In this document: one piece after another, positions 14,958 to 57,087 of the stretch
How the letters are laid out: every line of letters starts with the position of its first letter
How positions within the stretch are numbered: the first letter of the stretch is position 1
Origin: an uncultured Allomuricauda sp.
GTDB taxonomy: Bacteria; Bacteroidota; Bacteroidia; Flavobacteriales; Flavobacteriaceae
Reading direction: 5' to 3'
NCBI RefSeq assembly: GCF_947258355.1
Contig: NZ_CAMYIC010000024.1
Coordinates: forward strand, 1 to 64,000
Length of the DNA stretch: 64,000 nt
Position numbers and translations under genes: made by a program
Notes under the pieces: generated by a model
Databases searched by the model: none
Told to the model about the DNA's origin: nothing
Seen by the model: the letters and a program-made list of their open reading frames with translations, nothing else

Positions 14958-14985
14958 AAAAATTGCTTAAATCACAAATGAAAAT

Positions 14986-16470: not shown

Positions 16471-16478
16471 AGCTTATG

Positions 16479-16512
16479 AAAATGCTGTTTTTTAAAGCAG
16501 CATTTTTTTTAT
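16479..16512 (+). terminator. Terminator between susD-like gene and BCCT gene
   Basis: AAAATGCTG (16479-16487) pairs perfectly with CAGCATTTT (16498-16506) and is followed by further Ts. It lies just after the SusD stop and 44 bp before the BCCT start, so it either ends the susCD message or attenuates read-through. Confidence 0.8.
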
Positions 16513-16555
16513 TGTAGCAATTTCATTATTCTCTTACGCTTAAATAACATCATAA

Positions 16556-32851: not shown

Positions 32852-34822
32852 TTAATTCTCTTCCACTGGCAACCATACTTTCATTTTTCCAATGCCGCGA
32901 TTGGACCATGTGTAATATGGAATTGCCGTTAATTTTTCGTTTGATATCGTGTTGACCCCACCCAATAATTCGGGCTGCATTTCCACATTAAATTCCTCGT
33001 TTGCTGTTAATTGGATTTGGTCAAAAGCGTCTTTGTTATCGATTTCCTCCACTGCATAAACTATGGGGCCGTATTCGAGCGACATTTTTCCTTTATCCTC
33101 TTCAACCAAAGGATTGGCCATTACTTTTTTAACGGACATTGGAAACTCCAGTTCCACCACATCCCCTGATTCCCATGTTCTGGTGATGGTGAAGTAACCG
33201 TTATCGGTAACCGCATTAAACTCTTCGCCATTTAAGGTAATCTTATTGCTTGCCTCATCTTTGGTTGCATACTGATACAAATCTCCCGGCAAAACGGTAT
33301 TCCTCGACCATCCCGGTATTCTAAATTTTATGGTAAACTCACCTGTCTCTTCTGGATCAACAGTGAATTTCACTTTGCCATCCCATGGGTAGGATGTATC
33401 CTGTGAGACCAACACATCTTGTTCCTTCAATTCCACCCTTGCCTCATTGCTTGCGTAGAGATTCGCGTATAGTGTATTTCCCGTTTTGGAATAAATCAGA
33501 CCTGGTATAGCAGGAATAAAACGAATTACATTGGTAGGACAACAAGAGCAATCGAACCAATCTTTTCGTGTGCATGCGCCTTGATTGAACTTATAAACCC
33601 CGTCGGATTCCAACGCATTTGGATAGAAAAACTTTTCACCATCCAAAGAAAGTCCCGAGATCAATCCATTATATAGTGTACGTTCTATCACATCGAAATA
33701 TTTGACATCACCGGTTAGGTTGTGCAACCTATGGTTCCAGTATACATCTCCTATAGCTGCGCATGTTTCATTATAGGCTGTTAAGTTGGGTAATTCATAG
33801 TTTTCGCCAAATGCCTCTCCATCGTGTTTTGCACCTATGCCCCCTGTAACGTACATTTTTTTGTTTACCATGTTCTCCCATAGCGCGTTCACCGCATCCA
33901 GATAGGCAGTATCTTTTTTAATAGCAGCAATGTCCGTCATTGCAGCATACATATACACAGCACGTACGGCATGACCCACTACTTCGTCTTGGTCTACAAC
34001 AGGAACATGATCTTGGGAATAAGGCCCAAACAATTCATGGTTTTTAGGGTTGCCCCTATTGTCCAAAAAGTATTTAGAGAGTTTCAGGTACTCCTCTTTC
34101 CCTGTAATCTGATATAATTTAATAAGTCCTGTTTCTATGATCTGATGTCCAGGGACAGCATCAATTTTACCTTCGTCATCCCCGAATGTCTTTACCATTA
34201 AATCGGCATTCTTTAAAGCAATGTCCAAGAAGTTTCTTTTCCCTGTTGCTTTGTAGTGAACCGATGCAGCTTCGTATAAATGCCCCGCATTGTAGAGTTC
34301 GTGACTCATAAAGAGACCGTCCCAACGTTTAGCTTCTTTGACCTCCACCCATGGAGCCGGAGGTTTTGCGGGATTGATGGTTCGCCAAGTGGTTAGATAA
34401 CCATCCATCTCTTGACCAACTTTAATAATCGATACCAAGGAATCCACTAATTTTTCAAGCTTTGGGTTTGGGGAACTGATTAAGGAATTGGACGCTCCCT
34501 CAATAATTTTATAGACGTCGGTATCATCGAAAGGCATGGCTCCCCTAACCTCACCATTCAATTCTCCGCCTGCGATCAAGAAATTATCAAATCTTCCTTC
34601 CTGTTCACATTTTTCTATGGCATACTCAATCGTCTTGTTTTGTACCCTTTCTATTATTGGCAGCCAAAACTCATCCTTAATCTTTACGTTTTGAATGTTT
34701 ACAGGTTCAATTTCATACCCCTTTGGCTCTTCGATATCTTCCGATACAGTTGCATTGTTTTTACAATTGATCAGTAACAGCGCCAGTGCAATTATCCATG
34801 TAGTATTTTTTATGCTCATCAT
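32852..34822 (-). CDS. GH127 family beta-L-arabinofuranosidase (DUF1680), lipoprotein
   Basis: This 656-residue enzyme starts at the ATG at 34822 (signal peptide MMSIKNTTWIIALALLLINC); the open frame further upstream overlaps the GH43 stop region and lacks signal character. The GH127 zinc-thiolate site is complete: E352 and C354 in YNETCAA, and C427/C428 in DCSCCPTN, where the cysteine pair supplies the nucleophile. GH127 enzymes remove beta-1,2-linked L-arabinofuranose, as in the hydroxyproline-linked arabinosides of extensins and in pectic side chains. The protein is in the arabinose operon between GH43 and GH51. Confidence 0.92.
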   Translation of the reverse strand: MMSIKNTTWIIALALLLINCKNNATVSEDIEEPKGYEIEPVNIQNVKIKDEFWLPIIERVQNKTIEYAIEKCEQEGRFDNFLIAGGELNGEVRGAMPFDDTDVYKIIEGASNSLISSPNPKLEKLVDSLVSIIKVGQEMDGYLTTWRTINPAKPPAPWVEVKEAKRWDGLFMSHELYNAGHLYEAASVHYKATGKRNFLDIALKNADLMVKTFGDDEGKIDAVPGHQIIETGLIKLYQITGKEEYLKLSKYFLDNRGNPKNHELFGPYSQDHVPVVDQDEVVGHAVRAVYMYAAMTDIAAIKKDTAYLDAVNALWENMVNKKMYVTGGIGAKHDGEAFGENYELPNLTAYNETCAAIGDVYWNHRLHNLTGDVKYFDVIERTLYNGLISGLSLDGEKFFYPNALESDGVYKFNQGACTRKDWFDCSCCPTNVIRFIPAIPGLIYSKTGNTLYANLYASNEARVELKEQDVLVSQDTSYPWDGKVKFTVDPEETGEFTIKFRIPGWSRNTVLPGDLYQYATKDEASNKITLNGEEFNAVTDNGYFTITRTWESGDVVELEFPMSVKKVMANPLVEEDKGKMSLEYGPIVYAVEEIDNKDAFDQIQLTANEEFNVEMQPELLGGVNTISNEKLTAIPYYTWSNRGIGKMKVWLPVEEN

Positions 34823-34854
34823 TGGTATCAATAAAAATTTTGAATCCAGCCCTT

Positions 34855-35850
34855 TCAATTCATGGGCTCTACCACAGGCCAACCATTAAGCCAAGTAATT
34901 TCTTTTACCACGAGTTTTGGAGTCCCATTATCGTTGGCATCGTAAGCATGGCTGAAATAATAATCCTTACCGTCAAAAGTGTAAACACTGTTGTGACCAA
35001 CGCCGTACCAGTTTTCGTTTCCTTGGATCAAGATAGTTCCTCCTCCTTGATTTAGTGCTTTTCCATCTGCATCCATAAACGGTCCGGTTGCAGATGTCGA
35101 ACGTCCTACAACTACCTTGTATGTACTGTTTTCCCCTCTACAGCATAAATCCCACGACAGGAACAAATAGTAATATTGACCTTTCTTGAATATGAACGGA
35201 GCTTCCAAAGCGGCGTCTCCGGGATCTTTATCATCCAATTCAAAGCTTCGCTCACGTCTGGCTATGGTTTTCCATTCTTCGGGTTGGGCAATGGATTTTA
35301 GGTCTTTGCTGAGTTTCACCATTTTAAGACCATTCCAAAAAGAACCGAATGACATCCATGGAGCACCGTTGTCATCAAAAATAATGTTTGGATCAATGGC
35401 GTTCCACAAATCCCTGTTGGGTACCGATTGCACTATGATTCCCTGATCTTCCCATAGATAGTCTTCACTATTTGGGTCGAGTGTTTTATTTATCGTCAAA
35501 CCAATGGCCGAGGTATTTTTGGCAAATGCCGAAACCGAATAGTACAGATAATACTTTCCGTTATGCTCAATAATGTCCGGAGCCCAAATATGATTTTTAA
35601 AATCGGGTACAACCGAATCAGTCCAAGTTGGTTTCTCTGTGAAAATAGGGTCCAACTTCTCCCAGTTTTTCAAATCGGTGGATACAAAATGTGATATACC
35701 CCTACCTGTGCAAAATAGATGATATACACCTTTTTCTTTGATCGCTACCGGATCATGGACAACTATATCGGATTGAGCAAATGCACCAACTGTAATACAT
35801 AAAAACAAGAGCAATACTCGTAGAGCTTTAGATGAAATGGAAATATGCAT
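34855..35850 (-). CDS. GH43 endo-arabinanase-like enzyme (secreted)
   Basis: This 331-residue five-bladed propeller enzyme has a cleavable signal peptide (MHISISSKALRVLLLFLCITVGAFAQ). The three GH43 acids fit exactly: base D33 (VHDPV), pKa-tuning D153 (NAIDPNI) and acid E216 (ALEAPFI). Their spacing (120 and 63) equals that of Cellvibrio Arb43A (D38, D158, E221), an alpha-1,5-arabinanase. The SWDLCCRG loop is also typical of this group. It should cut linear arabinan outside the cytoplasm and feed the arabinofuranosidases of the same operon. Confidence 0.92.
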   Translation of the reverse strand: MHISISSKALRVLLLFLCITVGAFAQSDIVVHDPVAIKEKGVYHLFCTGRGISHFVSTDLKNWEKLDPIFTEKPTWTDSVVPDFKNHIWAPDIIEHNGKYYLYYSVSAFAKNTSAIGLTINKTLDPNSEDYLWEDQGIIVQSVPNRDLWNAIDPNIIFDDNGAPWMSFGSFWNGLKMVKLSKDLKSIAQPEEWKTIARRERSFELDDKDPGDAALEAPFIFKKGQYYYLFLSWDLCCRGENSTYKVVVGRSTSATGPFMDADGKALNQGGGTILIQGNENWYGVGHNSVYTFDGKDYYFSHAYDANDNGTPKLVVKEITWLNGWPVVEPMN

Positions 35851-39263: not shown

Positions 39264-42200
39264 CTAATTTTTATTAGGAATTTCCATGCGGACCAGCTTT
39301 TTGTTCACATCATAAAATTGAATGGAATCGACCACCCCTGAAGCAATAATACTATTGGAAGTCTGGGAGAGGTAGCCTGCGCCCATCAAATTTTCCTCTT
39401 TTCGTTTCTTTCCATTGTTTAAAAAAACTTCGGCTGTGCTTTCTCCGTTTTGGAAGTCAATTTTTTTCTGTTTTTCGGAGTCTGCAATACTAAAATTATC
39501 CAGTGAACCATTGTTTTTTCCAACAAGTACCAAAGACTGTCCATTATAACTATCCAAACGAACCATACTTTTAGAGTCTCCCAATGCTTTAAAACCGGAC
39601 GAAGTAGGATCCACTACTTCAAAAGATGTTCCTCCTTTGTTCAATAATACGGTTCCAATAGAGGCATCGTACCTCCCGTAGACCACTTCTGTGTTATATG
39701 AATTTCCTACCAGGATAAGGTCTAATAATCCATCAAAATTCAAGTCTTCCGCCAATATTCCATAGACTGGTGCAAACTGGGCTTCAATAGGTAATGGGAT
39801 AACAGAAAAACCTTCATCTCCATTGTTTTGAATAAATGAAGATTGCATCACTTTGCTCTCCAACGTGCTATGCCCCTGAGACCCCAAAAAGTCCATAATA
39901 TCATTTGTTGTGGATTTGGCATAGCTTCTATAATGCAATATATGTTTCTTTAACTGTGGTAATTGTTTGGTCAATTCATCCAAGGAAGTCAAAGGGTAGT
40001 ATTCCCCCTCTTCATATACGGAAAATATAGGGTCGACAAAGCCGTTCTCATCAAAATCGGCATAGTCCAATTTTAAAGGATGCTCCGCAGTCCCTTTTAG
40101 TGCTGAATTGAGCCCGATATTGCCCACAACAAAATCAATGTCGCCATCATTATCAAAATCTTCTGCAACAATGCTGTTCCATAGACCATTGGTTTCGGCA
40201 AGTGAAGTTTGAGGAGTTATGTTTTTTAATTTTATACCATCCCCTTTAAAAATGGTTACAGGCATAAACTCGCCCACCAGCACCAAATCCAGGTGTGAAT
40301 CATCATCGAAATCTGTCCACACTGCCGATGAAACCATCCCAACATTTTTAATCGAAGGTGCCACCTCTTGGGTTATATCCACAAATTGCCCGTTTCTATT
40401 CTCCAACAAATAACTCGTTGGTGATTCCGGATAATGTCCAGGAATAACCCTACCCCCAACAAACAGGTCAATATCCCCATCACCATCAAAGTCACCCCCG
40501 GCAACCGTAGATGTACTTTCATTTTTTATGGGCAGATCTCCCTTGGCGAATGTTCCAACATTATTGGGGTCGTTCAGGTATAATCTGTCTTGGTAGGCTT
40601 GATGACCTTTATAGCGTTCAGACCCACCACTAACAACATATAAATCTTGAAGGCCATCTCCGTTGGCATCAAAAAACAATGCTCCCAAATCCTCATATAA
40701 TTGGCTATCAGGAATTTCTTTTTTCTCAAATCCTCCTGACTTCTGCTGCACAAAAATAGTTGAACCGAAACCATACGAACCCCCAACAAATACGTCTTGG
40801 AGGCCATCGCCATTTATATCACCCACAGCAAGCCCAGGTCCTTGATTGGAAAAACCATGGTTTAACAAGGACTGTATGTTGTAGTCACTGAACTCCCTTT
40901 CCACATGATCAAAACCAATTAAGGAATCAATCTCGAAAATGGGGTCCCTATTATCGATTTTTGCTGCTTCAACTGGCTCTACCTCTGCATGTTTAATTTC
41001 AATACGCTGATTTGCCGATACATTTGATTGCATGGAGATATCACCATTTGGCCAGATTACTTCTACACTATCAATCTCATCGGTTTCTCCCAAACCAAAA
41101 TGAAGATCTTTCTCTACACTGCTTTGAAATCCTCTGGACGACTGAAGCACTTTTTTCTGACTAGTACCATCATAATAAAGGGTAACTTCCGCACCTATAG
41201 CCTGTGGGTTGAGTTTATTGCCCACAAGCGAAACTTGTACGTAATTTGAATTTTTAAATAATTCCCTTGTATTGTTCTTATAGATAAAAGCTGGCTGATC
41301 AATATTATTTACCACAAGTTCCAAATCACCATCCAAATCCAAATCTGCATAACTAGCCCCATTGGAAATGGATTTTTGATTAAGTCCCCAATCATTGGCC
41401 TTTTTTTGAAAATTTAATTGTCCCTTATTCTCAAAAATGTAGTTGCTCAGCTCTATTGTTGGCCTAACAACTAGACAGTCGAGAACAGATTTTCGAATTT
41501 CTTCAGGGTCAGAAAATGTTTTAGATCCACTTTGCCTAAACTTTACAAAATCCAGGTCGGTGATATCCTTGCCATAGCCATTGGTAATAAAAATGTCGTT
41601 ATTTCCATCGTTGTTGAAATCAGTTATGAGCGGGGCCCAGCTCCAGTCCGTTCTATCGATTCCCATCAGTTGCCCAATTTCGCTAAAGGTGCCATTGCCA
41701 TTATTGTAATGCACCATATTGCGCATATACTGATGACCGTAGCCAAACTTCTTTGCCATTTGGAACATATCGTAAGAATGAGAACCCGACATAAGTTTTC
41801 TTCTTTTATGCTGTTCTGGTAGCATATCCAAGGTGATTACATCCATCATACCATCATTGTTGATATCGGCAACATCATTGCCCATGGAAAAATGACTTGT
41901 GTGCCCAAAATAGGTCAATGCTTCTTCTGAAAAAGATCCATCCTTATTATTGACGTACAGTAAATCCCTTGATAAATAATCATTGGAGACATATATATCC
42001 GGCCAGTTATCATTATTGGCATCTATGACAGAAACACCAAGACCAAATCCTTCAATATTTATACCTGCTTCTCTGGATACGTTGGTGTAAACCGGATGAC
42101 CGAGGGCTTCGTTATAATCATTTCTATAAAGTCTATCCGTGTTTCGATAGGTTCCATTGGTAACCATTGGCCTCACCATTATGGCTGAATTTTCGAACCC

Positions 42201-42779
42201 ACCACCGGTAAGCAAATACATGTCGAGGTCACCATCCCGATCATAATCAAAAAAAATGGATTGGATGGATTCACCCTTATCGTCTAGACCGTATTCCTTT
42301 GCGGATTCCATAAAGGTCGCATCTCCCTGGTTTATGTAAAGTAAATTAGGGAAGCTATCCTTGTTCCCCATACCTCCCACAGAAATATAAATATCATCAA
42401 GGCCGTCACCATTGATATCGATTACACTTACGCCGGTACACCACTTGTTGGCAGTGTTGATATTTGATTTATGGGTAATGTCATCGAACCGTAAGTTCCC
42501 TTTATTTAAATAGATTTTACTTTCTTCCATGTTGGAAGTGAATATTAAATCGGGCAGACTGTCTTTGTTGAAATGGCCCACACCAACTCCCCCGCCGTTG
42601 TACAGGTATTCATAGGTAAGTAGATTCACACTATCGCTAGTGGTTATTCTATTTATGAAGTCAACTCCGGTCCTTTTTGATGGCAATAGCTGGAATAGGG
42701 TGTTTTTATCGGAAGATTTGCTACATGAAAGCATCAATACCAATAGAAATAAACAGCTATATTTTCTTATTTGCTCCAT
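39264..42779 (-). CDS. FG-GAP/VCBS repeat protein with ASPIC/UnbV domain, lipoprotein
   Basis: This 1171-residue protein has a lipoprotein signal (FLLVLMLSC) and two blocks of FG-GAP/VCBS repeats, with calcium-type loops such as DINGDGLDDIYIS, DANNDNWPDIYVS, DFNNDGNNDIFIT, DINGDGLQDVFVG and DFDGDGDIDLFVG. Between the blocks lies an ASPIC/UnbV domain (about 535-620, GFQSSVEKDLHFGLGE...VIWPNGD). This is the CRTAC1-like architecture. No catalytic motif is apparent. Placed between susD and a surface GH43, it could be a glycan-binding or scaffold protein of the outer-membrane arabinan system. Function unproven. Confidence 0.85.
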   Translation of the reverse strand: MEQIRKYSCLFLLVLMLSCSKSSDKNTLFQLLPSKRTGVDFINRITTSDSVNLLTYEYLYNGGGVGVGHFNKDSLPDLIFTSNMEESKIYLNKGNLRFDDITHKSNINTANKWCTGVSVIDINGDGLDDIYISVGGMGNKDSFPNLLYINQGDATFMESAKEYGLDDKGESIQSIFFDYDRDGDLDMYLLTGGGFENSAIMVRPMVTNGTYRNTDRLYRNDYNEALGHPVYTNVSREAGINIEGFGLGVSVIDANNDNWPDIYVSNDYLSRDLLYVNNKDGSFSEEALTYFGHTSHFSMGNDVADINNDGMMDVITLDMLPEQHKRRKLMSGSHSYDMFQMAKKFGYGHQYMRNMVHYNNGNGTFSEIGQLMGIDRTDWSWAPLITDFNNDGNNDIFITNGYGKDITDLDFVKFRQSGSKTFSDPEEIRKSVLDCLVVRPTIELSNYIFENKGQLNFQKKANDWGLNQKSISNGASYADLDLDGDLELVVNNIDQPAFIYKNNTRELFKNSNYVQVSLVGNKLNPQAIGAEVTLYYDGTSQKKVLQSSRGFQSSVEKDLHFGLGETDEIDSVEVIWPNGDISMQSNVSANQRIEIKHAEVEPVEAAKIDNRDPIFEIDSLIGFDHVEREFSDYNIQSLLNHGFSNQGPGLAVGDINGDGLQDVFVGGSYGFGSTIFVQQKSGGFEKKEIPDSQLYEDLGALFFDANGDGLQDLYVVSGGSERYKGHQAYQDRLYLNDPNNVGTFAKGDLPIKNESTSTVAGGDFDGDGDIDLFVGGRVIPGHYPESPTSYLLENRNGQFVDITQEVAPSIKNVGMVSSAVWTDFDDDSHLDLVLVGEFMPVTIFKGDGIKLKNITPQTSLAETNGLWNSIVAEDFDNDGDIDFVVGNIGLNSALKGTAEHPLKLDYADFDENGFVDPIFSVYEEGEYYPLTSLDELTKQLPQLKKHILHYRSYAKSTTNDIMDFLGSQGHSTLESKVMQSSFIQNNGDEGFSVIPLPIEAQFAPVYGILAEDLNFDGLLDLILVGNSYNTEVVYGRYDASIGTVLLNKGGTSFEVVDPTSSGFKALGDSKSMVRLDSYNGQSLVLVGKNNGSLDNFSIADSEKQKKIDFQNGESTAEVFLNNGKKRKEENLMGAGYLSQTSNSIIASGVVDSIQFYDVNKKLVRMEIPNKN

Positions 42780-47708: not shown

Positions 47709-48443
47709 ATGTTGGAAGAAGACTTGGAGGTGTCGGAAGACCCAAACATTCATCTCAATTATTATCAAAAAGAAGATCAGGTATTATTAGCGGTCGACTG
47801 CATTATCTTTGGATTCGATAAAGAAAATCTCAAGATTTTACTTATTAAAAGAAATTTTGATCCCGAAAAAGGGAAGTGGTCCCTAATCGGTGGATTCCTT
47901 AAGAAAAATGAAGATTTGGACCAGGCAGCTGTGCGGGTCTTGGAAACATTGACAGGATTGAACGATATTTATCTAGAACAATTACACACCTATAGTAAAA
48001 TTGATAGGGATCCTGGACAACGAACTATTTCTGTAGCTTATTACGCGTTGATTGATGTGGACAGTCATCGTTTTGATGGTATCCAAATTGATTCGGCCCA
48101 TTGGTTCGATGTAAACGAAGCTCCTGATTTGATCTTTGACCATAATGAAATGGTACGAAAGGCGAAAGCTCGATTAAAAAGAAGAGCGCTCACCAAACCC
48201 ATTGGTTTTGAACTCCTACCGGAAAAATTCACTATGAGACAACTTCAGAACCTGTATGAATCCATTTTGGACAAAGAACTGGACAAAAGAAACTTTATCA
48301 ATAAAATCAATTCTTTGGATGTTCTTGTTAAACTTGATGAAAAAGACATGAGTGTTTCCCGCAAGGGAGCTTACCTCTACGTTTTTGATAAGGACAAGTA
48401 TCAAAAGAAAGTTGAGGAAGACGGGTTTATATTCAAATTATAA
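47709..48443 (+). CDS. araR: AraR, Nudix-type transcriptional regulator of arabinose utilisation
   Basis: This 244-residue protein has an N-terminal Nudix-like domain (about 25-155) and a C-terminal winged HTH (about 165-240: RALTKPIGFELLPEKFTMRQLQNLYESIL, then RNFINKINSLDVLV). This is the layout of the Bacteroides AraR regulators, which release DNA on binding L-arabinose. The Nudix box GGFLKKNEDLDQAAVRVLETLTGL keeps the glycines but has lost the REUxEE glutamates (reads RVLETL), so it is a sensor, not a hydrolase. It is divergent from the arabinan susC and probably controls both arabinose units and itself. Confidence 0.88.
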   Translation: MLEEDLEVSEDPNIHLNYYQKEDQVLLAVDCIIFGFDKENLKILLIKRNFDPEKGKWSLIGGFLKKNEDLDQAAVRVLETLTGLNDIYLEQLHTYSKIDRDPGQRTISVAYYALIDVDSHRFDGIQIDSAHWFDVNEAPDLIFDHNEMVRKAKARLKRRALTKPIGFELLPEKFTMRQLQNLYESILDKELDKRNFINKINSLDVLVKLDEKDMSVSRKGAYLYVFDKDKYQKKVEEDGFIFKL

Positions 48444-48455
48444 ACCCGTTTGTTT
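48421..48455 (+). terminator. Terminator overlapping the end of araR
   Basis: ACGGGTTTATA (48421-48431) pairs perfectly with TATAAACCCGT (48439-48449), followed by TTGTTTATT. The stem includes the last araR codons and its stop (48441-48443), so the hairpin is partly coding. Confidence 0.75.
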
Positions 48456-48492: not shown

Positions 48493-50190
48493 CTATTTAA
48501 ACTCGGTGGAAAACTTCCACTTTGTCTTGTAATTTTTATTCAAAGGAAGATCTTGCAACAGGGCGCGCAACATTTCTATCGGCATTCTTCCTTCAACCAT
48601 TACACGGTCGTGGAACTGCTTCTCCGTCCATCCTTTTTCCAACATTTCGTTTCTAAGCGCATAAAACTGCAAGCCTCCCATCATGTATGCCAATTGATAT
48701 AAAGGCGGGTAGTTGGTTGTGAAAGAACGTCGCACCTCTGCTTCAGCGTTGGCATACTCATGCCCTACTTCATCCACCAAAAGATCGATACATTCCTGTG
48801 GGGTCATTTCCCCTAAGTGGAACTTGAGCGAGAAAATGATTCGCGCACAGCGATGGATTCTCCAGAAAAGCATACCCAATTTTTGCTCGGGAGTTTGCGG
48901 AAAATCCTTATTCCACAGTATAATTTCCCAATATAGGGCCCAGCCTTCGGTCCAAAAAGGATTGTAGAAAGGTCTCCTGTAACTTTTATGGCGACTGGTC
49001 ATAAAATACTGAAGGTTATGGCCTGGAAGCAATTCGTGTTGGACCGTGGGAAAGGAGAAATTTGGATTGTTGCCCCGCATGCTCATCAATTTGTCGTCGT
49101 GGTCCATTTCCATGGTCGGATAGGAAATAATGATGTCCCTCCCTCCTAAAAAGAAAGGGCTGACCTTTTGTCTCTCTGGGCTCATCATTTTCATACCCCA
49201 GGTTTCCTTGGCCAATTCCGGCAGCGTAATCAAATCTCTTTCTTCAATAAAATCCACGGCATGGGAATACAAATCCATTATGGCCTGTGGCTGTTCCCCA
49301 GCAGGAACATAGGTGTTCTTTACATGCTCCAACGCCTTTTTCCAATCATCGCCATAGCCCAATTCCCTGGATGCTTTGATCATTTCATTCTTGCACCATT
49401 CAAATTGTTCCTCTGCTGTTTGTATCAGTTCTTCAGGTGTATAGGGAATAAATTCCAATGCAAGGCTTTCGTTTAACGCGTCCTCACCAATGGGTTTCCC
49501 CACAATACCACTGCCATCATCCTTAACGCTGTCTTCAGAATAATTTTCCTTGAGGAAGTCCGCATAGGCGGTCAGTTTTTCGTTTAACTTTTGATATGGC
49601 TGTTCTACCCACCACGTAAAATCAGGGTCGTATCCATAGTAAAAATTATAGGCCTCTTCCAATCCTTTTTGGAGCGATGCAATGATTCCCGAAGCTTTAT
49701 CGGCTGTTTGCCAATCCTTGAAAGGTTTACTTTTCCATAACTCCATTTCAGAATCAATTGTTTCGGCCGCATCCTGAAAAGTCTGTGCCAATTGTTTAGC
49801 ATTGGGCTTTTTACCTCTTCTACGCTCTTGAATGAACGTGAAGATGTCCCCTGTAAAGTTGCTTACCTGGGCAACCGCTTTATATTCATCATAATCCTGA
49901 TCCAAAAAATAGGCTCTTTTGGTCATCAAGCTCTTCAATAAAATATAGTCCACTTTACCCTGTTGGGACAATGAAGAGAAGTCTATATCCGACAACCTAT
50001 CTTGCCAATCCGAATAAAACTTGGTAAAACGCTGATAGTATTCCTCGGATTCGTCTACACTGTAAGTTCGACTAAGAGCCCAGTTATCCGCCTCAAACTC
50101 CGTGACCAAATCGGCCAGCTTACTGGTTTGCGCTGTTGCCAACGAGCCAATCAATAACACTATGATGATTCCTGCTTTTTTTAAACCCAT
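48493..50190 (-). CDS. DUF885 family metallopeptidase-like protein (secreted)
   Basis: This 565-residue protein has a signal peptide (MGLKKAGIIIVLLIGSLATAQ) and is of the DUF885 family, putative zinc carboxypeptidases/dipeptidases related to M3/M32-like folds. The metal motif is HELLPGH (H385, E386, H391), with the expected downstream FWTEGWALYWE glutamate. It lies 45 bp after a GH127 gene on the same strand, at the end of a run with hydroxyproline catabolic genes. A role in trimming hydroxyproline-containing peptides freed of arabinose fits this setting but is inferred. Confidence 0.8.
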   Translation of the reverse strand: MGLKKAGIIIVLLIGSLATAQTSKLADLVTEFEADNWALSRTYSVDESEEYYQRFTKFYSDWQDRLSDIDFSSLSQQGKVDYILLKSLMTKRAYFLDQDYDEYKAVAQVSNFTGDIFTFIQERRRGKKPNAKQLAQTFQDAAETIDSEMELWKSKPFKDWQTADKASGIIASLQKGLEEAYNFYYGYDPDFTWWVEQPYQKLNEKLTAYADFLKENYSEDSVKDDGSGIVGKPIGEDALNESLALEFIPYTPEELIQTAEEQFEWCKNEMIKASRELGYGDDWKKALEHVKNTYVPAGEQPQAIMDLYSHAVDFIEERDLITLPELAKETWGMKMMSPERQKVSPFFLGGRDIIISYPTMEMDHDDKLMSMRGNNPNFSFPTVQHELLPGHNLQYFMTSRHKSYRRPFYNPFWTEGWALYWEIILWNKDFPQTPEQKLGMLFWRIHRCARIIFSLKFHLGEMTPQECIDLLVDEVGHEYANAEAEVRRSFTTNYPPLYQLAYMMGGLQFYALRNEMLEKGWTEKQFHDRVMVEGRMPIEMLRALLQDLPLNKNYKTKWKFSTEFK

Positions 50191-50235
50191 ATTGTTTTTA
50201 TTTAAGTTTTGACACTACCTAAAGGTAGTTGTTGA

Positions 50236-52590
50236 TTATTTCAGTTCAATATCCAGATAAACGGAATGACGCCCATACGTTTCATAAAATGGTTTAAATA
50301 CGACCCCATCTATGGTAAAATTCAATGTTGTTGGATCTCCCTCAATGTTTTTTGCCAGATTCTTTGCATCCAAATTGATTTTTCTCCAATCATTTCGTGA
50401 TTCGTCTTCTGGAGCCACCAACAATATGGGGCCATAAAAGAGGCTCGCTATATTTTGTTGATCCATAATAGGGTCCAAGTGAAATTGGAATGGCATCTTC
50501 AACTCCACCTCATCCCCATTTTTCCACTCACGGGCGATGGTCAAGTACTTACCTGGCAGGGCATCTACTTGACCTATTGATCCATTTATTTTTACAGAAA
50601 CACCTTGGGTTGCCCATTGTGGCACTCGTATTTTTAAATCAAATACACCTTCTCCTTCCACAATCAATTTGGTATGGTCTGCTTTGGGAAAATCCGTTTC
50701 TTGGCGAAGGGTGATACCTTTCTCTACCCATTTTAAAGTGGAAGGAACAAAGAGGTTTACATATAGCTCCTTGTCATTCTTGCTTTTAAAATAAATTGAG
50801 TTCTGAAACTTCGTGTTGCTTTCCAACGCAGTACCATTGCAGCAGGTAAAACCTTTCATGTCAGGATTGCCAAACCGTTTTACAGATCCAGGACGCAAGG
50901 GTACGTGGTAAGTATTGGCAGGACTGTCCTCGGCTACAGAGGCCAATATATGGTTGTACAGACCACGCTCATAGTAATCCATGAATTCCGTTCGCTGATC
51001 AAATAGAAATAAGTTTCTGGTAAGCTTCAAAAGATTGTAGGAAGCGCATGTTTCATTTTGTCCACCAGACGAAAAACCGTTTTCGTACAAGGTAGCAGGT
51101 TCACCAATGAAACACTCTGGATTGGTAGGGTTCCGCGCACCGGCAACACCACCTATACTGTACATATAATCGTCTTTGACCTTGTACCAAAAATTATCCG
51201 CTACCCGATAGTATTCAGGGCTTTTTGAAACTCGGTACATTTCGAGGGCACCCATAATTTGTGGAATATGCTGATTGGCATGTAACCCTCGAAAAGTATC
51301 CACGTTTTTCGCTAACCCGTGGGAATGTTCAGCATCACCAAAAAACATCTTGATATTATCAAACAACTGCGCCACCTTCAGATATCTTGGTTCGTCGGTA
51401 ATTCGGTCCAATCGGGCCATTGCTTCGTTCATACCTCCAAATTCACCTGCGATATAGGTGTTCCACATAGCAATCAAAGTATCGGTGGGCAATTGGCTCA
51501 ACCGGGCATACACCCAATCTCCCATTCCTTTGGCAATTTCTAGGGCTTTCTCATTGCCACTTACCTCATAAACATCCAATAAACCAGCGAGTATTTTATG
51601 CAATGTGTAGTAGGGTGCCCAAACTTGTGTGGGTTTTGTGCCGTAGACGGCTCCTTTTTCCAACATGATAAATTGGTCTGGAGGATAGGCGCTTATAAAA
51701 CCATTGCCCCAGTTCCAAAAATCCGTACGGATACCATTTTCACTCAGATCGGAATCGTATATTGATTTTCCAGGACCAGGTGGCACAGCGGTTGGGTCTG
51801 CCACAAACTCACCTCCCTTTTTGACAGGTCGACCAGATAGTTGTGACAGCTCGTAAAGTACTGTCACCATATAATTCATTTTGTCTTTAAAATTGGCCTG
51901 TAATGTTGTATTATAACCTGTACTGGCATAAGCCTGAGCAAGGGCACTGAGGTAATGACCCGTAGCATGCCCCCTTAATTTGGTCTCTTGGCTGTCCCAC
52001 ACCCCTAAAGGTTCAGCTCGTTCGGGCTGCTCCTGTCCGAAGGCGTTTCGAAACATGTACAAAAAAGAATCTGGGTTGGTCTCCGCGAGTGTAGAGATGA
52101 ATTTATCCCGATTGGTTATAAATTTTGTTGGTTCTCCTTTCGTGTTGTGGTTTAATGTTACCTCATCAAGAGCGAAAGCTTCCAATGTACGGATAGGTGT
52201 ACCTTGTGCCTCTCTAGGTTTCACCCTCACTTTGGTCCTTGGCTGAAACTGGGTACCCTTTACTTTGCCGGTGATGACATATTCACCTACTTTCAAGACA
52301 TCTTGGTTATCCTTCGGTGCTGGCCAAATCACCCTTACTTTTTCCTGTGGGATACCATCTTCGAAAACCGCCTTTATATATCTAGGCAACCTGGGCAGTG
52401 ACCCCACCTCTGCTTCCACTTCAATATTTTCAACATCAATCAAGTATTTGTTATAAAGCTGAGGGGTATCCGAAGCAAATGTGGGAAGATCATTTTTTGC
52501 CACATCTTCGGCCCCATCCTGTGCGTGGACCCGGTTTAAGGACCAAAAGATTAAAAACAGTAGCGCAACAATTACTTTTATTGGTTTCAT
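50236..52590 (-). CDS. GH127 family beta-L-arabinofuranosidase, large form with N-terminal Ig-like domain (secreted)
   Basis: This 784-residue enzyme has a signal peptide (VIVALLFLIFWSLNRVHAQ), an N-terminal beta domain (about 45-120: LPRLPRYIKAVFEDGIPQEKVRVIWP...VKGTQFQPRTKV, a bacterial Ig-like fold) and the GH127 alpha/alpha barrel. The catalytic zinc site is complete: E513 and C515 in NETCASYN, and C583/C584 in FTCCNGT. It differs markedly from the GH127 of the arabinose operon. It sits 64 bp downstream of 4-hydroxyproline epimerase with no clear terminator between, and 45 bp before the DUF885 peptidase. Hydroxyproline-linked beta-arabinosides are the natural guess for its substrate. Confidence 0.9.
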   Translation of the reverse strand: MKPIKVIVALLFLIFWSLNRVHAQDGAEDVAKNDLPTFASDTPQLYNKYLIDVENIEVEAEVGSLPRLPRYIKAVFEDGIPQEKVRVIWPAPKDNQDVLKVGEYVITGKVKGTQFQPRTKVRVKPREAQGTPIRTLEAFALDEVTLNHNTKGEPTKFITNRDKFISTLAETNPDSFLYMFRNAFGQEQPERAEPLGVWDSQETKLRGHATGHYLSALAQAYASTGYNTTLQANFKDKMNYMVTVLYELSQLSGRPVKKGGEFVADPTAVPPGPGKSIYDSDLSENGIRTDFWNWGNGFISAYPPDQFIMLEKGAVYGTKPTQVWAPYYTLHKILAGLLDVYEVSGNEKALEIAKGMGDWVYARLSQLPTDTLIAMWNTYIAGEFGGMNEAMARLDRITDEPRYLKVAQLFDNIKMFFGDAEHSHGLAKNVDTFRGLHANQHIPQIMGALEMYRVSKSPEYYRVADNFWYKVKDDYMYSIGGVAGARNPTNPECFIGEPATLYENGFSSGGQNETCASYNLLKLTRNLFLFDQRTEFMDYYERGLYNHILASVAEDSPANTYHVPLRPGSVKRFGNPDMKGFTCCNGTALESNTKFQNSIYFKSKNDKELYVNLFVPSTLKWVEKGITLRQETDFPKADHTKLIVEGEGVFDLKIRVPQWATQGVSVKINGSIGQVDALPGKYLTIAREWKNGDEVELKMPFQFHLDPIMDQQNIASLFYGPILLVAPEDESRNDWRKINLDAKNLAKNIEGDPTTLNFTIDGVVFKPFYETYGRHSVYLDIELK

Positions 52591-52654
52591 GCTGATTATC
52601 TAAAAAACACAGACATCTATATCATCCTGTATTTATTTATTATTGATGAGTCCG

Positions 52655-53662
52655 CTACAACACCTGAAAACCATGTGCATAAGGGTCGTCATCATCTATT
52701 ATAATATTGTTATAGCCAATTACCTGAGCCCATCCTTGAATGCTCGGGATTATGGCCTGCTTTCCGTTCAAGGTGGTTTCAGCTTCGACTTTCCCCACAA
52801 ATTTGCTTCCGATGAAACTTTCGTGAACAAAAGGTTGCCCCTCTACCAGCTTGCCTTTGGCATATAGCTGGGCCATACGCGCCGAGGTCCCTGTGCCACA
52901 AGGAGAGCGATCTATCGCCTTATCCCCGTAAAAAACAGCATTCCTTCCCGATGATGAAGCATCCAAAGGATTACCGGTCCACATCATATGACTTACATCC
53001 CTTATGGTCGGGTTTTCGGGATGGATAAACCTATCTGGATACTTTTCATTGATTGACTTGCGCACCACTTGTGAATAGTGGATTATTTGACCTGCCGAAT
53101 AATCTTGCAGACCGGAAAAATTCTCCTGAGGGTCCACAATGGCATAAAAGTTTCCACCGTATGCCACGTCAAAAACAATTTCTCCCAACTCTGGGCATTC
53201 CACCGTTAGGTTTTCGGTCGCCAAGTACGATTTCACATTCACTAGTTTAACCCATTCCACCTTTTTACCGGTCAATTGATACTCAATTTCCACAAGACCC
53301 GCAGGTGCCTCCATTCTTATCTTACCCGGTATTTTAGGCACAATCAGTCCTTCTTCAATGGCAACCGTAATAGTGCCAATGGTACCATGCCCGCACATGG
53401 GCAAACAGCCCGATGTTTCAATGAAGAGTATGGCAAAATCATTCTCCGAGTTGTGCGGTGCCATCAAAATGCTCCCACTCATCATGTCGTGCCCTCGGGG
53501 TTCAAACATTAATCCCCGCCGTATCCAATCATACTCCTTTAAAAAATGCTGACGCTTCTCACTCATATCATTGCCCATCAAATTTGGACCTCCTCCTGCA
53601 ACTACCCTCACAGGATTTCCGCATGTATGCGCGTCTACACAAAAAAATGTTTTTCTGGCCAC
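52655..53662 (-). CDS. 4-hydroxyproline 2-epimerase (proline racemase family)
   Basis: This 335-residue enzyme should convert trans-4-hydroxy-L-proline to cis-4-hydroxy-D-proline. Both catalytic cysteines are present: C90 in LPMCGHGTIG and C255 in DRSPCGTGTSAR; dehydratases of the family have Thr or Ser at the first. The GLMFEPRGHDMMSGSIL stretch is typical of hydroxyproline epimerases rather than proline racemases. It is 3 bp after the semialdehyde dehydrogenase in a catabolic operon, which supports the assignment. Confidence 0.92.
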   Translation of the reverse strand: MARKTFFCVDAHTCGNPVRVVAGGGPNLMGNDMSEKRQHFLKEYDWIRRGLMFEPRGHDMMSGSILMAPHNSENDFAILFIETSGCLPMCGHGTIGTITVAIEEGLIVPKIPGKIRMEAPAGLVEIEYQLTGKKVEWVKLVNVKSYLATENLTVECPELGEIVFDVAYGGNFYAIVDPQENFSGLQDYSAGQIIHYSQVVRKSINEKYPDRFIHPENPTIRDVSHMMWTGNPLDASSSGRNAVFYGDKAIDRSPCGTGTSARMAQLYAKGKLVEGQPFVHESFIGSKFVGKVEAETTLNGKQAIIPSIQGWAQVIGYNNIIIDDDDPYAHGFQVL

Positions 53663-53665
53663 TCG

Positions 53666-55189
53666 CTATTGTTTTAGATGGTCTGGCAATAATTCCATTG
53701 GAAAAGATTGATAACTGATCGGTCTTACCCAACGTTTTATGGAGTGAATACCCACCGCTGTAAACCTTGAATCGGTAGACGCAGGGTAAGGCCCTCCGTG
53801 TTGCATGGATGCACATACTTCCACTCCGGTTGGAACCCCATTGTAAATAATTCTTCCTACTCTTTGCTGTAATGTTTCCACGATTTCTTCCAAGTCGGCA
53901 CCATCTCCTTTCTCCGCGATCAAGGTACCCGTCAATTGACCTTCCAGTCCTTCGATAATCTGAAGAAGTTCCGATTCATCTTGACATTGAACCACCATTG
54001 AAAACGGTCCAAAAACCTCTTGGTGCATTTTAGGATTCTTCAGAAATGCTGACCCAGAAACACTGGCAATGACCGAAGCAGCGTCATTTACGCTTAAATC
54101 CCCATCATATTTGCCAACTACCTCGACCCCTTCTTGGGAAACAACATCATCTTCCTTGGATTCATATCCTTTTTTGATATTAGGGTGCAGCATGGTCTGA
54201 GGAGCAATAGCTGTGGTTTCCTTTCCCAATTCCTGAACAAAGGCTTCAGTATCGTCGCTCTTCACGGTTAACAATAAGCCTGGATTGGTACAAAATTGTC
54301 CCGTACCCAAAGTGATGGAGCCCGCATAAGTCTTTGCCAGCTCACTTCCTCTTTTGGAAATGGCATCTGCAGTCATGATTACTGGGTTAATACTTCCCAT
54401 TTCTGCAAAAACCGGTATAGGTTCATCCCGTTTGGCAGCCAAATCGAAAAGCGCTCTTCCTCCTCCAATACTGCCAGTAAAACCGACGGCCTTAATTTTT
54501 GGATGGTTCACTAGATCAATTCCGGTCTGCACTGCTCCATTAACACTTGAAAAAACACCCTTCGGCATTCCTGTTTTTTCCGCAGCATTTACAATGGCCG
54601 AAGCCACCAATTCGTTTGTACCTGCATGCATGGGATGGCCTTTTACGATTACTGGGCAACCGGAAGCCAAAGCACTTGCCGTATCCCCGCCTGCTGTGGA
54701 ATAGGCCAAGGGAAAATTACTGGCTCCAAAAACCGCCACGGGCCCTAAGGGAATCATTGTTTTTCTTAAATCGGGTTTGGGCTGGGGTTTTCTATCGGGT
54801 TGGGCGGCATCAAAGGTGTTTTCACGCCAATCATCATTCTCGATCAATTCTGCAAAAGAGCGTAATTGAAAAACCGTTCTTCCACGTTCTCCAATAGCCC
54901 TACCTTCGGGCAGGCCGGATTCCAACATATAGGTGTCGATCAATTCTTGGTCCAAAGCCAAAATTTCATCGGCAATGGTGTTCAGAAAATCTGCTCGTTG
55001 TCTTCCCGGAATTTTTCGAAATGTTTTAAAAGCTTCCCAAGCCTGTTCGGCAGCACTTTCTATTTCTTCTTTTGTGGCTTCCAAGAACACCGTTGGGTTC
55101 TGTATATTCTTTTTGGGATCAATGGTTCTGAATTCTACAGACCCATCTGCCTTAAATTGTCCTCCAATACAGTTTTTACCTGTAATCAT
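53666..55189 (-). CDS. Alpha-ketoglutarate semialdehyde (2,5-dioxovalerate) dehydrogenase
   Basis: This 507-residue NAD(P)-dependent aldehyde dehydrogenase oxidises alpha-ketoglutarate semialdehyde to alpha-ketoglutarate. Catalytic C300 (GQFCTNPG) and E263 (FAEMGSINPV) and the cofactor stretch GPVAVFGASNFPLAYSTAGG are visible, the last being characteristic of this subgroup. It overlaps the upstream deaminase by ATGA and is followed by the epimerase after 3 bp, so all three are translated together. Confidence 0.92.
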   Translation of the reverse strand: MITGKNCIGGQFKADGSVEFRTIDPKKNIQNPTVFLEATKEEIESAAEQAWEAFKTFRKIPGRQRADFLNTIADEILALDQELIDTYMLESGLPEGRAIGERGRTVFQLRSFAELIENDDWRENTFDAAQPDRKPQPKPDLRKTMIPLGPVAVFGASNFPLAYSTAGGDTASALASGCPVIVKGHPMHAGTNELVASAIVNAAEKTGMPKGVFSSVNGAVQTGIDLVNHPKIKAVGFTGSIGGGRALFDLAAKRDEPIPVFAEMGSINPVIMTADAISKRGSELAKTYAGSITLGTGQFCTNPGLLLTVKSDDTEAFVQELGKETTAIAPQTMLHPNIKKGYESKEDDVVSQEGVEVVGKYDGDLSVNDAASVIASVSGSAFLKNPKMHQEVFGPFSMVVQCQDESELLQIIEGLEGQLTGTLIAEKGDGADLEEIVETLQQRVGRIIYNGVPTGVEVCASMQHGGPYPASTDSRFTAVGIHSIKRWVRPISYQSFPMELLPDHLKQ

Positions 55190-56109
55190 ACTACACTGTT
55201 TATGTTTTTATATTCCGGAAGTTCCGGTCTATTCTTCATTGCGGTTTCTATCACTTTTAAAACCCGTTCTCTTTCTGCTCCCTGTAATGGCAATCTAGGG
55301 GCGCGTACATGTTCGGTGCCAATTCCCGTAGCGACTTCCGCCAACTTTATATTTTGAACCAATTGCGGGCTGATGTCCAGCTCCAATAATGGCATGAACC
55401 ATCGATAGATATCCAAGGCTTCTTGAACCCTTCCAGCTTTTACCAACTCGTAAATAGCAACCGTTTCGGCAGGATATGCACAAACCAGTCCAGCCACCCA
55501 ACCTACGGCACCAATCACCAAGCTTTCCAAGCCCAAGGTATCCACTCCCGTAAAGACTTTGACCCTATCTCCAAACTTATTTTGAATTCTAATCACATTG
55601 GTTATATCGCGAGTGGACTCCTTTATAGCCTGAATGTTATCGCATTCGATCAATTCTTCCAACATCTCCAACGTTACTTCTATTTTATAATCCACGGGAT
55701 TGTTGTAGAGCATAATGGGCAGCGAAGTACTGTTCGCCACGGCCTTGAAATAGGCGACTGTTTCGTAATCCGTCGCTTTATAGCGCATTGGCGGCAAAAG
55801 CATCAACCCGTTGGCGCCCACTTTCTCTGCTCGTTGGGCTGCCTCAATGGCTCCTTTTGTACTTTGCTCGGCCACGTTCATGATTATCGGAATTTTTCCA
55901 TCGGCCAATTCAAGGGACTTTTTTATCAGGATTTCTTTCTCCTCTTGCTCCAAGGTACTCGCTTCTCCCAAAGTACCCCCGAGAATTATTCCGTGTACCC
56001 CAGCTTCAATCTGCGCTTTGATGTTCTTTTCGAACATGGCAAGATCCAATTTATCATCACTTGTAAACTTCGTAGTTACAGCTGGCATTACGCCCTCCCA
56101 TTTTACCAT
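55186..56109 (-). CDS. DHDPS-family deaminase, likely Pyr4H2C deaminase of hydroxyproline catabolism
   Basis: This 307-residue class I aldolase-fold protein has the DapA/NAL signature: GGTLGEAST (44-52), Y135 in LYNNPVD and Schiff-base K163 in AIKEST. In hydroxyproline operons this subfamily converts 1-pyrroline-4-hydroxy-2-carboxylate to alpha-ketoglutarate semialdehyde with loss of ammonia, and the adjacent dehydrogenase uses that product. A keto-deoxy-sugar-acid dehydratase role is the alternative, but the epimerase next door argues for hydroxyproline. It is the first gene of the operon, divergent from an AraC-type regulator. Confidence 0.85.
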   Translation of the reverse strand: MVKWEGVMPAVTTKFTSDDKLDLAMFEKNIKAQIEAGVHGIILGGTLGEASTLEQEEKEILIKKSLELADGKIPIIMNVAEQSTKGAIEAAQRAEKVGANGLMLLPPMRYKATDYETVAYFKAVANSTSLPIMLYNNPVDYKIEVTLEMLEELIECDNIQAIKESTRDITNVIRIQNKFGDRVKVFTGVDTLGLESLVIGAVGWVAGLVCAYPAETVAIYELVKAGRVQEALDIYRWFMPLLELDISPQLVQNIKLAEVATGIGTEHVRAPRLPLQGAERERVLKVIETAMKNRPELPEYKNINSVV

Positions 56110-56244
56110 AGTCGTTTCATATTATTTCTATCTAAAATTACAAAGCTGACCACATTCCCTTTTATACCATTATTAGCCTATTGTTATACTATATTACCCT
56201 AATTTAGCCATAATGTATATTTTTGAAATAATTTAGGCTCATTC
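56110..56244. promoter_or_regulatory. Divergent control region, hydroxyproline operon and araC-type gene
   Basis: The 135-bp gap contains two direct TTAGCC repeats (56173-56178 and 56204-56209, 31 bp apart) and an inverted copy in ATTTAGGCT (56231-56239). These are candidate half-sites for the AraC-family protein. TATTTTTG (56218-56225) is a -7 match for the regulator, and minus-strand CAGCTTTG (56148-56141) is a near match for the operon. Confidence 0.45.
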
Positions 56245-57087
56245 ATGAAAGTCCTTCCCTTTAAAATACCGAAACCCAAGAACGAGGCACTTGTCTACCA
56301 AATTGACAGGGAACAGGTGTTTTATGACCAATTGCACCAGCACGGGGAAATTCAAATCAGCTATGTGGAAAAAGGAGCAGGTTCACTTATAGTGGGCGAT
56401 AGCATCAACGAGTACAAAGCGGGAGACATTTTGGTCATTGGAAGTTTTATTCCCCATGTATTCCGAAGCGACACACGAATCAAGGAAGAATCTTTGATGC
56501 ACACCCTGTTTTTCGATGAAGACTCCTTTGGCAAGAATTTCTTTCAGCTAACGGACCTATCATCAACGCAAGGATTCTTTAAAAAATCGGTGTTTGGGAT
56601 GCGAGTCTTCTCGCGGAAAAGCAAAATCATTCCCTTGTTCCAAGCACTATCACATCAAAACAAAGTGGAACAGATCGCTTCGTTGTTAATGATCATCAAT
56701 CAAATCAACAAGTCGAAAACCGCGCCCCTTTCCTCTTTTGTTTACCGAAAATCGTTTACCGATGACGAAGGCAAACGCATGAGCCAAGTGTACGAATATG
56801 CCATGGAGCAATATGCTGAGCCTATTACATTGGATGAGATAGCGGAAAGGGCCAACATGAGCAAAAATGCATTCTGCAGATATTTTAAAAAACGGACCAA
56901 TAAAACTTTTTTCCAGTTTTTGATTGAAATACGGATCGAGAACGCCTGTAAATTTCTCATCAAAAATCCTGAGCTGTCGGTTGCCGCAATTGCGGAACAA
57001 TGCGGATTCAACAATATCGCCAATTTCAACCGCAAGTTCCGAACGTTTAAAAATTGTACCCCGACCCAATACCGCAATCAATTTTAA
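56245..57087 (+). CDS. AraC family transcriptional regulator, likely of hydroxyproline catabolism
   Basis: This 280-residue regulator has an N-terminal cupin domain (about 15-90: HQHGEIQISYVEKGAGSLIVGD...YKAGDILVIGSFIPHVFRSD) and a C-terminal double HTH (about 180-280: EPITLDEIAERANMSKNAFCRYFKKRTNKTFFQFL...AIAEQCGFNNIANFNRKFRTFKNCTPTQYR). It is divergent from the deaminase-dehydrogenase-epimerase operon, 135 bp away, so a role as its substrate-responsive activator is probable. The ligand is not known. Confidence 0.88.
   Translation: MKVLPFKIPKPKNEALVYQIDREQVFYDQLHQHGEIQISYVEKGAGSLIVGDSINEYKAGDILVIGSFIPHVFRSDTRIKEESLMHTLFFDEDSFGKNFFQLTDLSSTQGFFKKSVFGMRVFSRKSKIIPLFQALSHQNKVEQIASLLMIINQINKSKTAPLSSFVYRKSFTDDEGKRMSQVYEYAMEQYAEPITLDEIAERANMSKNAFCRYFKKRTNKTFFQFLIEIRIENACKFLIKNPELSVAAIAEQCGFNNIANFNRKFRTFKNCTPTQYRNQF

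Follow-up and report, generated by a model that had tools for sequence, protein, structure and literature searches.

Utilisation loci are usually read as sugar-only systems, and hydroxyproline (Hyp) operons as pathways for collagen or free Hyp. The removal of sugars from hydroxyproline-rich glycoproteins (HRGPs) and the clustering of Hyp genes with peptidases are already known separately; the papers named here by PMC number are drawn on through excerpts. In Xanthomonas euvesicatoria, the XeHypAA/XeHypBA2/XeHypBA1 system includes a beta-L-arabinofuranosidase for arabinose on Hyp, and a putative prolyl oligopeptidase gene lies beside xehypAA (PMC6085000). In Bifidobacterium longum (HypBA1/HypBA2, Bll3HypBA1 and Bll4HypBA1), Bll4HypBA1 is reported to act on Hyp-linked arabinose and Bll3HypBA1 is a GH146 enzyme with LamG and Ig-like domains (PMC10850190). 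A collagen cluster of Colwellia brings together peptidases, D-Hyp dehydrogenase, epimerase, deaminase and a regulator (PMC7883544), and the described neighbourhoods of the epimerase pathway contain the epimerase with DAAO, DHDPS and aldehyde dehydrogenase genes (PMC4113996). Here we analysed a run of five minus-strand genes at 48493-56109 in the first 64,000 nucleotides of contig NZ_CAMYIC010000024.1 (the window), encoding a DHDPS-family deaminase candidate, an aldehyde dehydrogenase, a 4-hydroxyproline 2-epimerase, a glycoside hydrolase (GH) and a DUF885 candidate peptidase. The run is probably a reduced version of a locus with which Bacteroidota use HRGPs (here arabinogalactan proteins, extensins and related glycoproteins of algae). 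We infer this function from the gene families, their conserved pairing, a shared DNA box, intact Zn-Cys residues and the split of the Hyp genes over the genome. In the proposed scheme, an exported GH146-like enzyme would remove beta-L-arabinofuranose, in the best case the residue attached directly to Hyp. The Pro/Hyp-rich peptide thus exposed would be trimmed by the DUF885 protein, also exported, which DPP-IV-like and prolidase types would assist in fuller loci. Hyp would be imported, epimerised to cis-4-hydroxy-D-proline and oxidised by a flavin dehydrogenase, encoded here on another contig, and deamination of the product and a further oxidation would give alpha-ketoglutarate. The operon would be switched on by an AraC-type regulator at one box, and the freed arabinose would enter the adjacent arabinose cluster.

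The pairing of GH and epimerase genes, whose absence from related genomes the sequence-only reading of this stretch had named as one possible refutation, proved to be conserved. In a family sample of 249 genomes, a close GH orthologue was present in 12, the window genome included. The orthologues of the 11 relatives are 67-72% identical to the window protein, and the other 17 GH matches at 1e-60 are paralogues with 31-37% identity. The epimerase was found in 134 of the 249 genomes and in all 11 relatives with the GH orthologue; the two genes were linked, on the same strand and ~5-10 kb apart, in seven of these relatives and not linked in four. None of the 11 GH paralogue copies in epimerase-bearing genomes was linked, the nearest lying ~24 kb away (G154); the 11 are a manual count among the 17 paralogues listed, the remaining six being in genomes without an epimerase match. 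The association exceeds chance (7/11 orthologues against 0/11 paralogues, Fisher p 0.004), in a test that treats genes on different contigs as unlinked and ignores shared ancestry. Among the loci cited by L number, the 80 named loci are the best of 352 GH relatives from a scan of genome contigs and thus represent the closest orthologues only; counts among them use blastp identity floors (60% for the epimerase) and miss genes past the fetched flank, and nine of the 80 loci are shorter than 20 kb. The open reading frame (ORF) calls were greedy: the epimerase frame of L069 was masked by an ORF on the opposite strand and was seen in the epimerase search of the family genomes. An epimerase occurred in the flank of 38/80 GH loci, upstream and on the same strand in 36 of the 38, together with an aldehyde dehydrogenase in 36/80, an AraC orthologue in 26/80, and DAO-type (29/80), DPP-IV-like (39/80), DUF885 (37/80), DUF5695 (52/80), SusD-type (18/80) and SusC-type (10/80) genes. 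Gene order differed between loci: some have a permease, M24 peptidases or SusC/D in between, and the GH gene of the Pedobacter loci lay upstream (L159) or was divergent (L171). The GH gene directly followed the epimerase, as in the window, in seven of the 38 linked loci (L102, L103, L107, L113, L115, L116 and L125). Compact loci resembling that of the window are present in Flagellimonas lutimaris and [Muricauda] lutisoli. That a Hyp operon came to lie at the edge of the arabinose cluster by chance in one lineage, for which the abutment of the run on this cluster could speak, is hardly credible, since linked loci also occur in Flavobacterium, Salegentibacter, Wenyingzhuangia, Sinomicrobium, Confluentibacter and Pedobacter, and that arabinose cluster was not detected in the fetched flanks of these loci. 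A Bacteroidota-like GH orthologue (73% identity) was also observed in L137, on a contig labelled as an Actinomycetota metagenome-assembled genome (MAG), which is probably mis-binned.

ORF calling and gap measurement confirmed the five-gene run of the sequence-only reading at the same coordinates (Table 1), with gaps of -4, 3, 64 and 45 bp, and its observation that no strong terminator separates the genes also held. No terminator-like site was found on the minus strand in the gaps; the single one listed (48891-48875) lies inside the DUF885 gene, and a 13-pair hairpin is located at 48419-48451, just beyond the end of the run. The promoter-like (15 versus 16.0 in shuffled sequences) and terminator-like (10 versus 8.9) counts showed no excess over chance. 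The identity of the epimerase is firm on sequence criteria: both catalytic Cys positions are kept, and the rival NCBIfam equivalogs (proline racemase and trans-3-Hyp dehydratase) scored under their cut-offs. The deaminase and the aldehyde dehydrogenase are candidates assigned from family plus context; no NCBIfam model exceeded its cut-off for the former, and the NCBIfam matches of the latter (to dioxovalerate and other aldehyde dehydrogenases) all fell far under theirs. The GH and DUF885 proteins carry hydrophobic signal-like N-termini, as judged by eye, and the other three proteins of the run do not. DUF885 orthologues are found in GH runs in seven of their ten occurrences, the window's included (249 family genomes, E 1e-100). 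There was no D-Hyp dehydrogenase in the run, which leaves the operon set for trans-4-Hyp (epimerase, dehydrogenase, deaminase and aldehyde dehydrogenase) incomplete, and the run alone cannot burn Hyp to alpha-ketoglutarate as proposed in the sequence-only reading. Pfam also found no SusC/SusD pair in the run, so that it does not qualify as a polysaccharide utilisation locus; the nearest pair belongs to the arabinose cluster.

The GH protein, which the sequence-only reading had taken for a GH127 enzyme of the HypBA1 type, scored 220 bits against the GH146 structure 5opj and 142 bits against the GH146 enzyme Bll3HypBA1 (8k7y), versus 75 bits for the best GH127 structure (6ex6) and 36 bits for HypBA1 (3wkw). 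The family names of the structure entries were taken from the structure search, 5opj being placed in GH146 through its sibling entries 6yqh and 8qf8. A 47-sequence profile again put GH146 entries on top, with HypBA1 far behind, and the predicted fold (model pLDDT 73.7) also ranked GH146 entries first. The scores, profile and fold ranking together rule out a HypBA1-type GH127 identity. Pfam PF07944 matches both this protein and the other GH127-type protein of the window, and the one truly near the GH127 structures is the latter, in the arabinose cluster. The closest solved structures are those of Bacteroides thetaiotaomicron GH146 enzymes, and, given an identity of ~25%, the GH protein may belong to a separate clade. 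Residues E513, C515, C583 and C584 are invariant in 47/47 aligned orthologues and align with the GH146 Zn ligands E723, C725, C804 and C805 (ligands from PMC10850190), the residues described in B. longum; the Glu-x-Cys and Cys-Cys arrangement of GH146 is thus present. E492, also invariant among the aligned orthologues (n = 47), was set by eye, as E492-x-F, on the S/R-E-H-F motif that holds the acid/base E694 in Bll3HypBA1, at a local insertion where the model is poor. Since the GH146 family includes XeHypBA1 and Bll4HypBA1, which are reported to act on Araf-beta1-Hyp (PMC10850190), the earlier biochemical idea survives the change of family. The window protein measures 784 aa, compared with 789 in L115, 800 in L103 and at least 965 in the other 78 of the 80 loci. 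Domain maps showed that it lacks the N-terminal LamG domain of the longer orthologues, and a C-terminal loss was ruled out as the cause of its shortness.

A putative regulatory box, GGGTAATATAGTAT, is located at 56186-56199 on the minus strand, ~76 bp upstream of the deaminase start, with a second half-site, GGCTAATAATGG, at 56167-56178. The 14-mer had a single exact copy among the places listed in the scan of the window's own genome. The box was derived from the gaps next to AraC genes (n = 41), of which 34 precede a deaminase-type gene and seven precede other run genes. It occurred with at most one mismatch in 24 of the 41 gaps, with at most two in 34 and with three in six, and L117, where the ORF call shortened the gap, had seven mismatches. 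A search of the 80 loci (1.68 Mb) for boxes with no more than one mismatch gave 39 copies, spread over 28 loci; 37 of the 39 (18/18 exact copies) lay within 300 bp upstream of listed genes, a zone covering 2.2% of the bases. The two misses were in L151 and L117, the latter 73 bp before a deaminase gene and outside the zone, probably owing to the ORF call. Copies beside AraC genes are circular evidence, as they were used for discovery. A total of 19 independent copies, not adjoining AraC or deaminase genes, preceded DPP-IV (16), SusC (2) and GH (1) genes, most of them from one lineage. In L125, an exact box lies ~66 bp before the GH gene itself. In genome G075 the two modules are separated; the box there stands before SusC and GH (L071) and, with one mismatch, before a distant Hyp operon (L096) whose adjoining regulator gene is of the MerR type, not the AraC type. 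AraC orthologues (63-72% identity) are also found at the head of the GH loci L071 and L073, whose fetched stretches contain no Hyp genes. With one mismatch allowed, the degenerate pattern was not specific genome-wide (75 matches versus 67 for the reversed control), and reliance was therefore placed on the exact box and on its positions in related loci. These positions place one box at both the Hyp genes and the glycoprotein genes.

The missing dehydrogenase step has a candidate enzyme elsewhere in the genome. A DAO candidate, 56% identical to the DAO of L067, was found on contig C54, in a stretch that is syntenic, gene by gene, with the Hyp locus L075 of the same genus, minus the deaminase and the epimerase. 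The window genome contains one epimerase match. Only ~26% matches were obtained for a DPP-IV orthologue and no match for DUF5695 in the genome, whose assembly is rated 95.6% complete, so that absences could be gaps. Among seven other genomes with the compact gene order, six had one DAO match and G250 had none, and three full-locus genomes had two each (E 1e-80). The Hyp pathway of the window genome is thus probably split over two loci, and, because the full form is more widespread, the split would have arisen by loss. An M28 peptidase gene was additionally observed divergent from the Hyp genes in L075 (6996-8552) and from the lone DAO gene in the window genome (L089, 249-1994).

The fuller loci add to the run a DAO-family dehydrogenase, a DPP-IV/S9 peptidase, M24 peptidases of prolidase/aminopeptidase-P types, an amino-acid permease, SusC/D, a GH51-like protein, DUF5695, a GH43 with LamG and a GH42. 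Of the 12 genomes with the GH orthologue, the 11 other than the window's encode a nearly complete DUF5695 (in G144 on another contig than the GH gene), and G245 has a partial DUF5695 near a contig edge. Its co-occurrence with the orthologue (11/12 against 1/237 genomes) gave a Fisher p of 3e-17, in a test that omits a broken remnant in G189 and ignores shared ancestry. The model of DUF5695 (pLDDT 82, pTM 0.86) found its best fold match in the PL27 lyase BACCELL_00875 (5no8; Z 25.7, 612/669 residues, rmsd 3.5, 16% identity), the next protein reaching Z 15.0 in a ranking that covers the listed families only; a sequence search against the PDB gave no match. The predicted DUF5695 of the relatives has the PL27 architecture of an N-terminal beta-sandwich and an (alpha/alpha)6 barrel. 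PL27 enzymes are rhamnose-alpha1,4-glucuronate lyases, which free rhamnose from the arabinogalactan protein gum arabic (PMC8377490). The predicted shared fold is no proof of function; together with the GH42 and GH43 neighbours, it leans towards arabinogalactan-protein-like substrates for the full loci, which hint no less at arabinogalactan proteins than at extensins. Open-licence literature searches turned up no tested function for DUF5695 or DUF885, and the term DUF5695 occurred there only in a paper on fungal velvet regulators. A second DUF885 group (~573-590 aa) was observed between the aldehyde dehydrogenase and epimerase genes of Hyp operons not beside a GH gene (L076, L078, L082 and L095-L097), and M24 peptidases sit by the epimerase in others; two DUF885 groups therefore accompany Hyp catabolism. 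In addition, a distant second DHDPS type (~28-30% identity to the window's) replaces the deaminase in L066, L067, L078, L124, L145 and L149, and L077 carries one nearby.

Several observations weigh against the HRGP reading of the run. No epimerase was found in the flank of 42/80 GH loci, and 17/80 had none of epimerase, DAO, DPP-IV-like, DUF885 and DUF5695 genes; either the GH enzyme serves elsewhere too or the flank was too short. Model confidence is low in the active-site segments of the GH protein. BT0349, a B. thetaiotaomicron GH146 enzyme, is described as acting on arabinan-derived arabinotetraose and beta1,2-arabinobiose, not on Hyp (PMC10850190). Only 28 of the 80 loci contain a box with at most one mismatch, the 64-bp gap before the GH gene has none, and the single box of the run precedes the deaminase gene, so that GH expression would depend on read-through. 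No box was found near or upstream of the DAO gene of the window genome. The window copy is devoid of DAO, DPP-IV-like, DUF5695 and LamG and may be eroding. One alternative is that the substrate of the GH146-like enzyme is arabinan or another beta-arabinofuranoside without Hyp, and that the enzyme, never touching Hyp glycans, is encoded with a Hyp operon because plant or algal wall material delivers both substrates. In its favour are the activity of BT0349, the B. thetaiotaomicron GH146 structures being the nearest, the loci without an epimerase, the adjoining arabinose cluster, and W324 of the GH protein, which is invariant and aligns with a Trp of 5opj. The entry 5opj is BT0349, in agreement with PMC10850190, and the aligned Trp is perhaps W162 of that paper. 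We regard this alternative as rather unlikely, since the repeated linkage with Hyp genes and X-Pro-type peptidases across different gene orders, as well as the shared box, ties the GH enzyme to the protein part.

A further alternative is that the run is an ordinary operon for collagen or free Hyp, in which the GH and DUF885 genes are left-overs of an eroded glycoprotein locus with no joint role. The genes and domains missing from the window copy are compatible with such decay, as is the collagen cluster with Hyp genes known in Colwellia (PMC7883544). Erosion is seen a second time in G189, where a remainder of DUF5695, interrupted by three stops (C10:1261556-1261960), stands beside a DUF885 gene (1262048-1263742) that is 76% identical to the window's. 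We nevertheless judge the left-over explanation improbable, because the GH and DUF885 ORFs are intact, with signal-like N-termini and the expected active-site residues kept, because the compact order with GH after the epimerase recurs among the linked loci, and because Pfam detected no collagenase family among the five run genes. The HRGP interpretation of the sequence-only reading was therefore retained in part: the conserved pairing, the expected partners in fuller loci and the shared box speak for it, and its enzyme family and a complete pathway within the run did not stand. Whether the reduced HRGP locus is one outpost of a Bacteroidota regulon is a more evenly balanced question. In that proposal, one AraC-type regulator and its box would govern the complete consumption of HRGPs, comprising that of sugars (by GH146-like enzymes, GH42/43/51 types and DUF5695 as a new PL27-like family), of peptide (by DPP-IV-like enzymes, prolidases and DUF885) and of Hyp, with Hyp or a Hyp product as the signal. 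An amino acid, not a sugar, would then switch on glycosidases. Such a regulon would reveal the source of Hyp for many Bacteroidota of soil and sea and would assign roles to DUF5695 and DUF885; it could also yield enzymes exposing the Hyp glycans of plant and algal walls.

The adjacent arabinose system with a GH127 enzyme, also part of the sequence-only reading, was borne out (Table 1). Protein identities (e.g., 94-95% for SusC in L113 and L115) suggest that the window belongs to the Muricauda/Flagellimonas/Allomuricauda group. In the 21 nearest-lineage loci (L102-L118, L121, L124, L125 and L129), which comprise that group and one MAG, 19 have an AraR-type orthologue downstream of the GH run, and arabinose enzymes or arabinose SusC/D follow in 16. 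The FG-GAP/ASPIC-UnbV protein of the cluster (1171 aa, 39264-42779) has orthologues of 86-93% identity after SusD in L113 and L115. Elsewhere in the window, a SusC/SusD-like pair followed by a BCCT betaine/carnitine/choline transporter was observed at 11616-18145.

Table 1. Coordinates and assignments of the run and of the neighbouring genes in the window.
Feature	Position	Strand	Evidence or content
DHDPS-family deaminase candidate	55186-56109	-	Pfam PF00701, 206.9 bits; place in Hyp loci
Aldehyde dehydrogenase, candidate alpha-ketoglutarate semialdehyde dehydrogenase	53666-55189	-	Pfam PF00171 (Aldedh); GQFC, Cys300
4-Hydroxyproline 2-epimerase	52655-53662	-	Pro_racemase; NF010578 585.6 bits, cut-off 376; C90 and C255
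GH146-like beta-L-arabinofuranosidase candidate	50236-52590	-	GH127_cat, GH127M and Big_4; signal-like N-terminus
DUF885 candidate peptidase for Pro/Hyp peptides	48493-50190	-	PF05960, 169 bits; HELLPGH; signal-like N-terminus
AraC-family regulator, divergent from the run	56245-57087	+	Pfam HTH_18/AraC_binding
NrtR/AraR-type NUDIX-winged-helix regulator beside the arabinose cluster	47709-48443	+	Pfam NrtR_WHD, NUDIX, AraR_C
Arabinose cluster	22114-47568	-	SusC/D, FG-GAP/ASPIC protein, two GH43, GH127 (32852-34882), GH97
Arabinose cluster (continued)	22114-47568	-	Two alpha-L-arabinofuranosidase C domain proteins, kinase, class II aldolase, AraA, mutarotase, SSF symporter

Compared with the described systems, the locus shares single parts with each. 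The X. euvesicatoria system differs in having a peptidase pseudogene and a participating GH121 enzyme, and the organism is not a member of Bacteroidota; the excerpted text does not contain the term proline racemase and describes no Hyp catabolism (PMC6085000). The B. longum enzymes share the Zn-Cys residues, and the excerpts describe no Hyp-burning genes with them (PMC10850190). For Latescibacteria, GH127 enzymes for extensin arabinose and the uptake of amino acids and oligopeptides were proposed in silico from genomes; they belong to another phylum, and no joint locus with Hyp catabolism is described in the excerpts (PMC4454575). The Colwellia cluster, again from another phylum, includes an M9 collagenase, has collagen as its substrate and, in the excerpted description, names no glycosidase (PMC7883544). 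The excerpted text on the epimerase neighbourhoods mentions neither arabinofuranosidases nor glycoside hydrolases, and the window run, unlike those neighbourhoods, lacks DAAO (PMC4113996). The PL27 lyases (PMC8377490) resemble the locus through the fold predicted for the partner DUF5695, at 16% identity and for a protein not found in the window genome. In Mariniflexile, a Hyp pathway without D-Hyp dehydrogenase has been reported, the excerpts containing nothing on a joint locus (PMC11278836). Open-licence literature searches, with papers represented in part, found none that describes the union of glycoprotein use and Hyp catabolism. What would be new in comparison with these systems is a utilisation locus extended beyond the sugars to the peptide and to Hyp.

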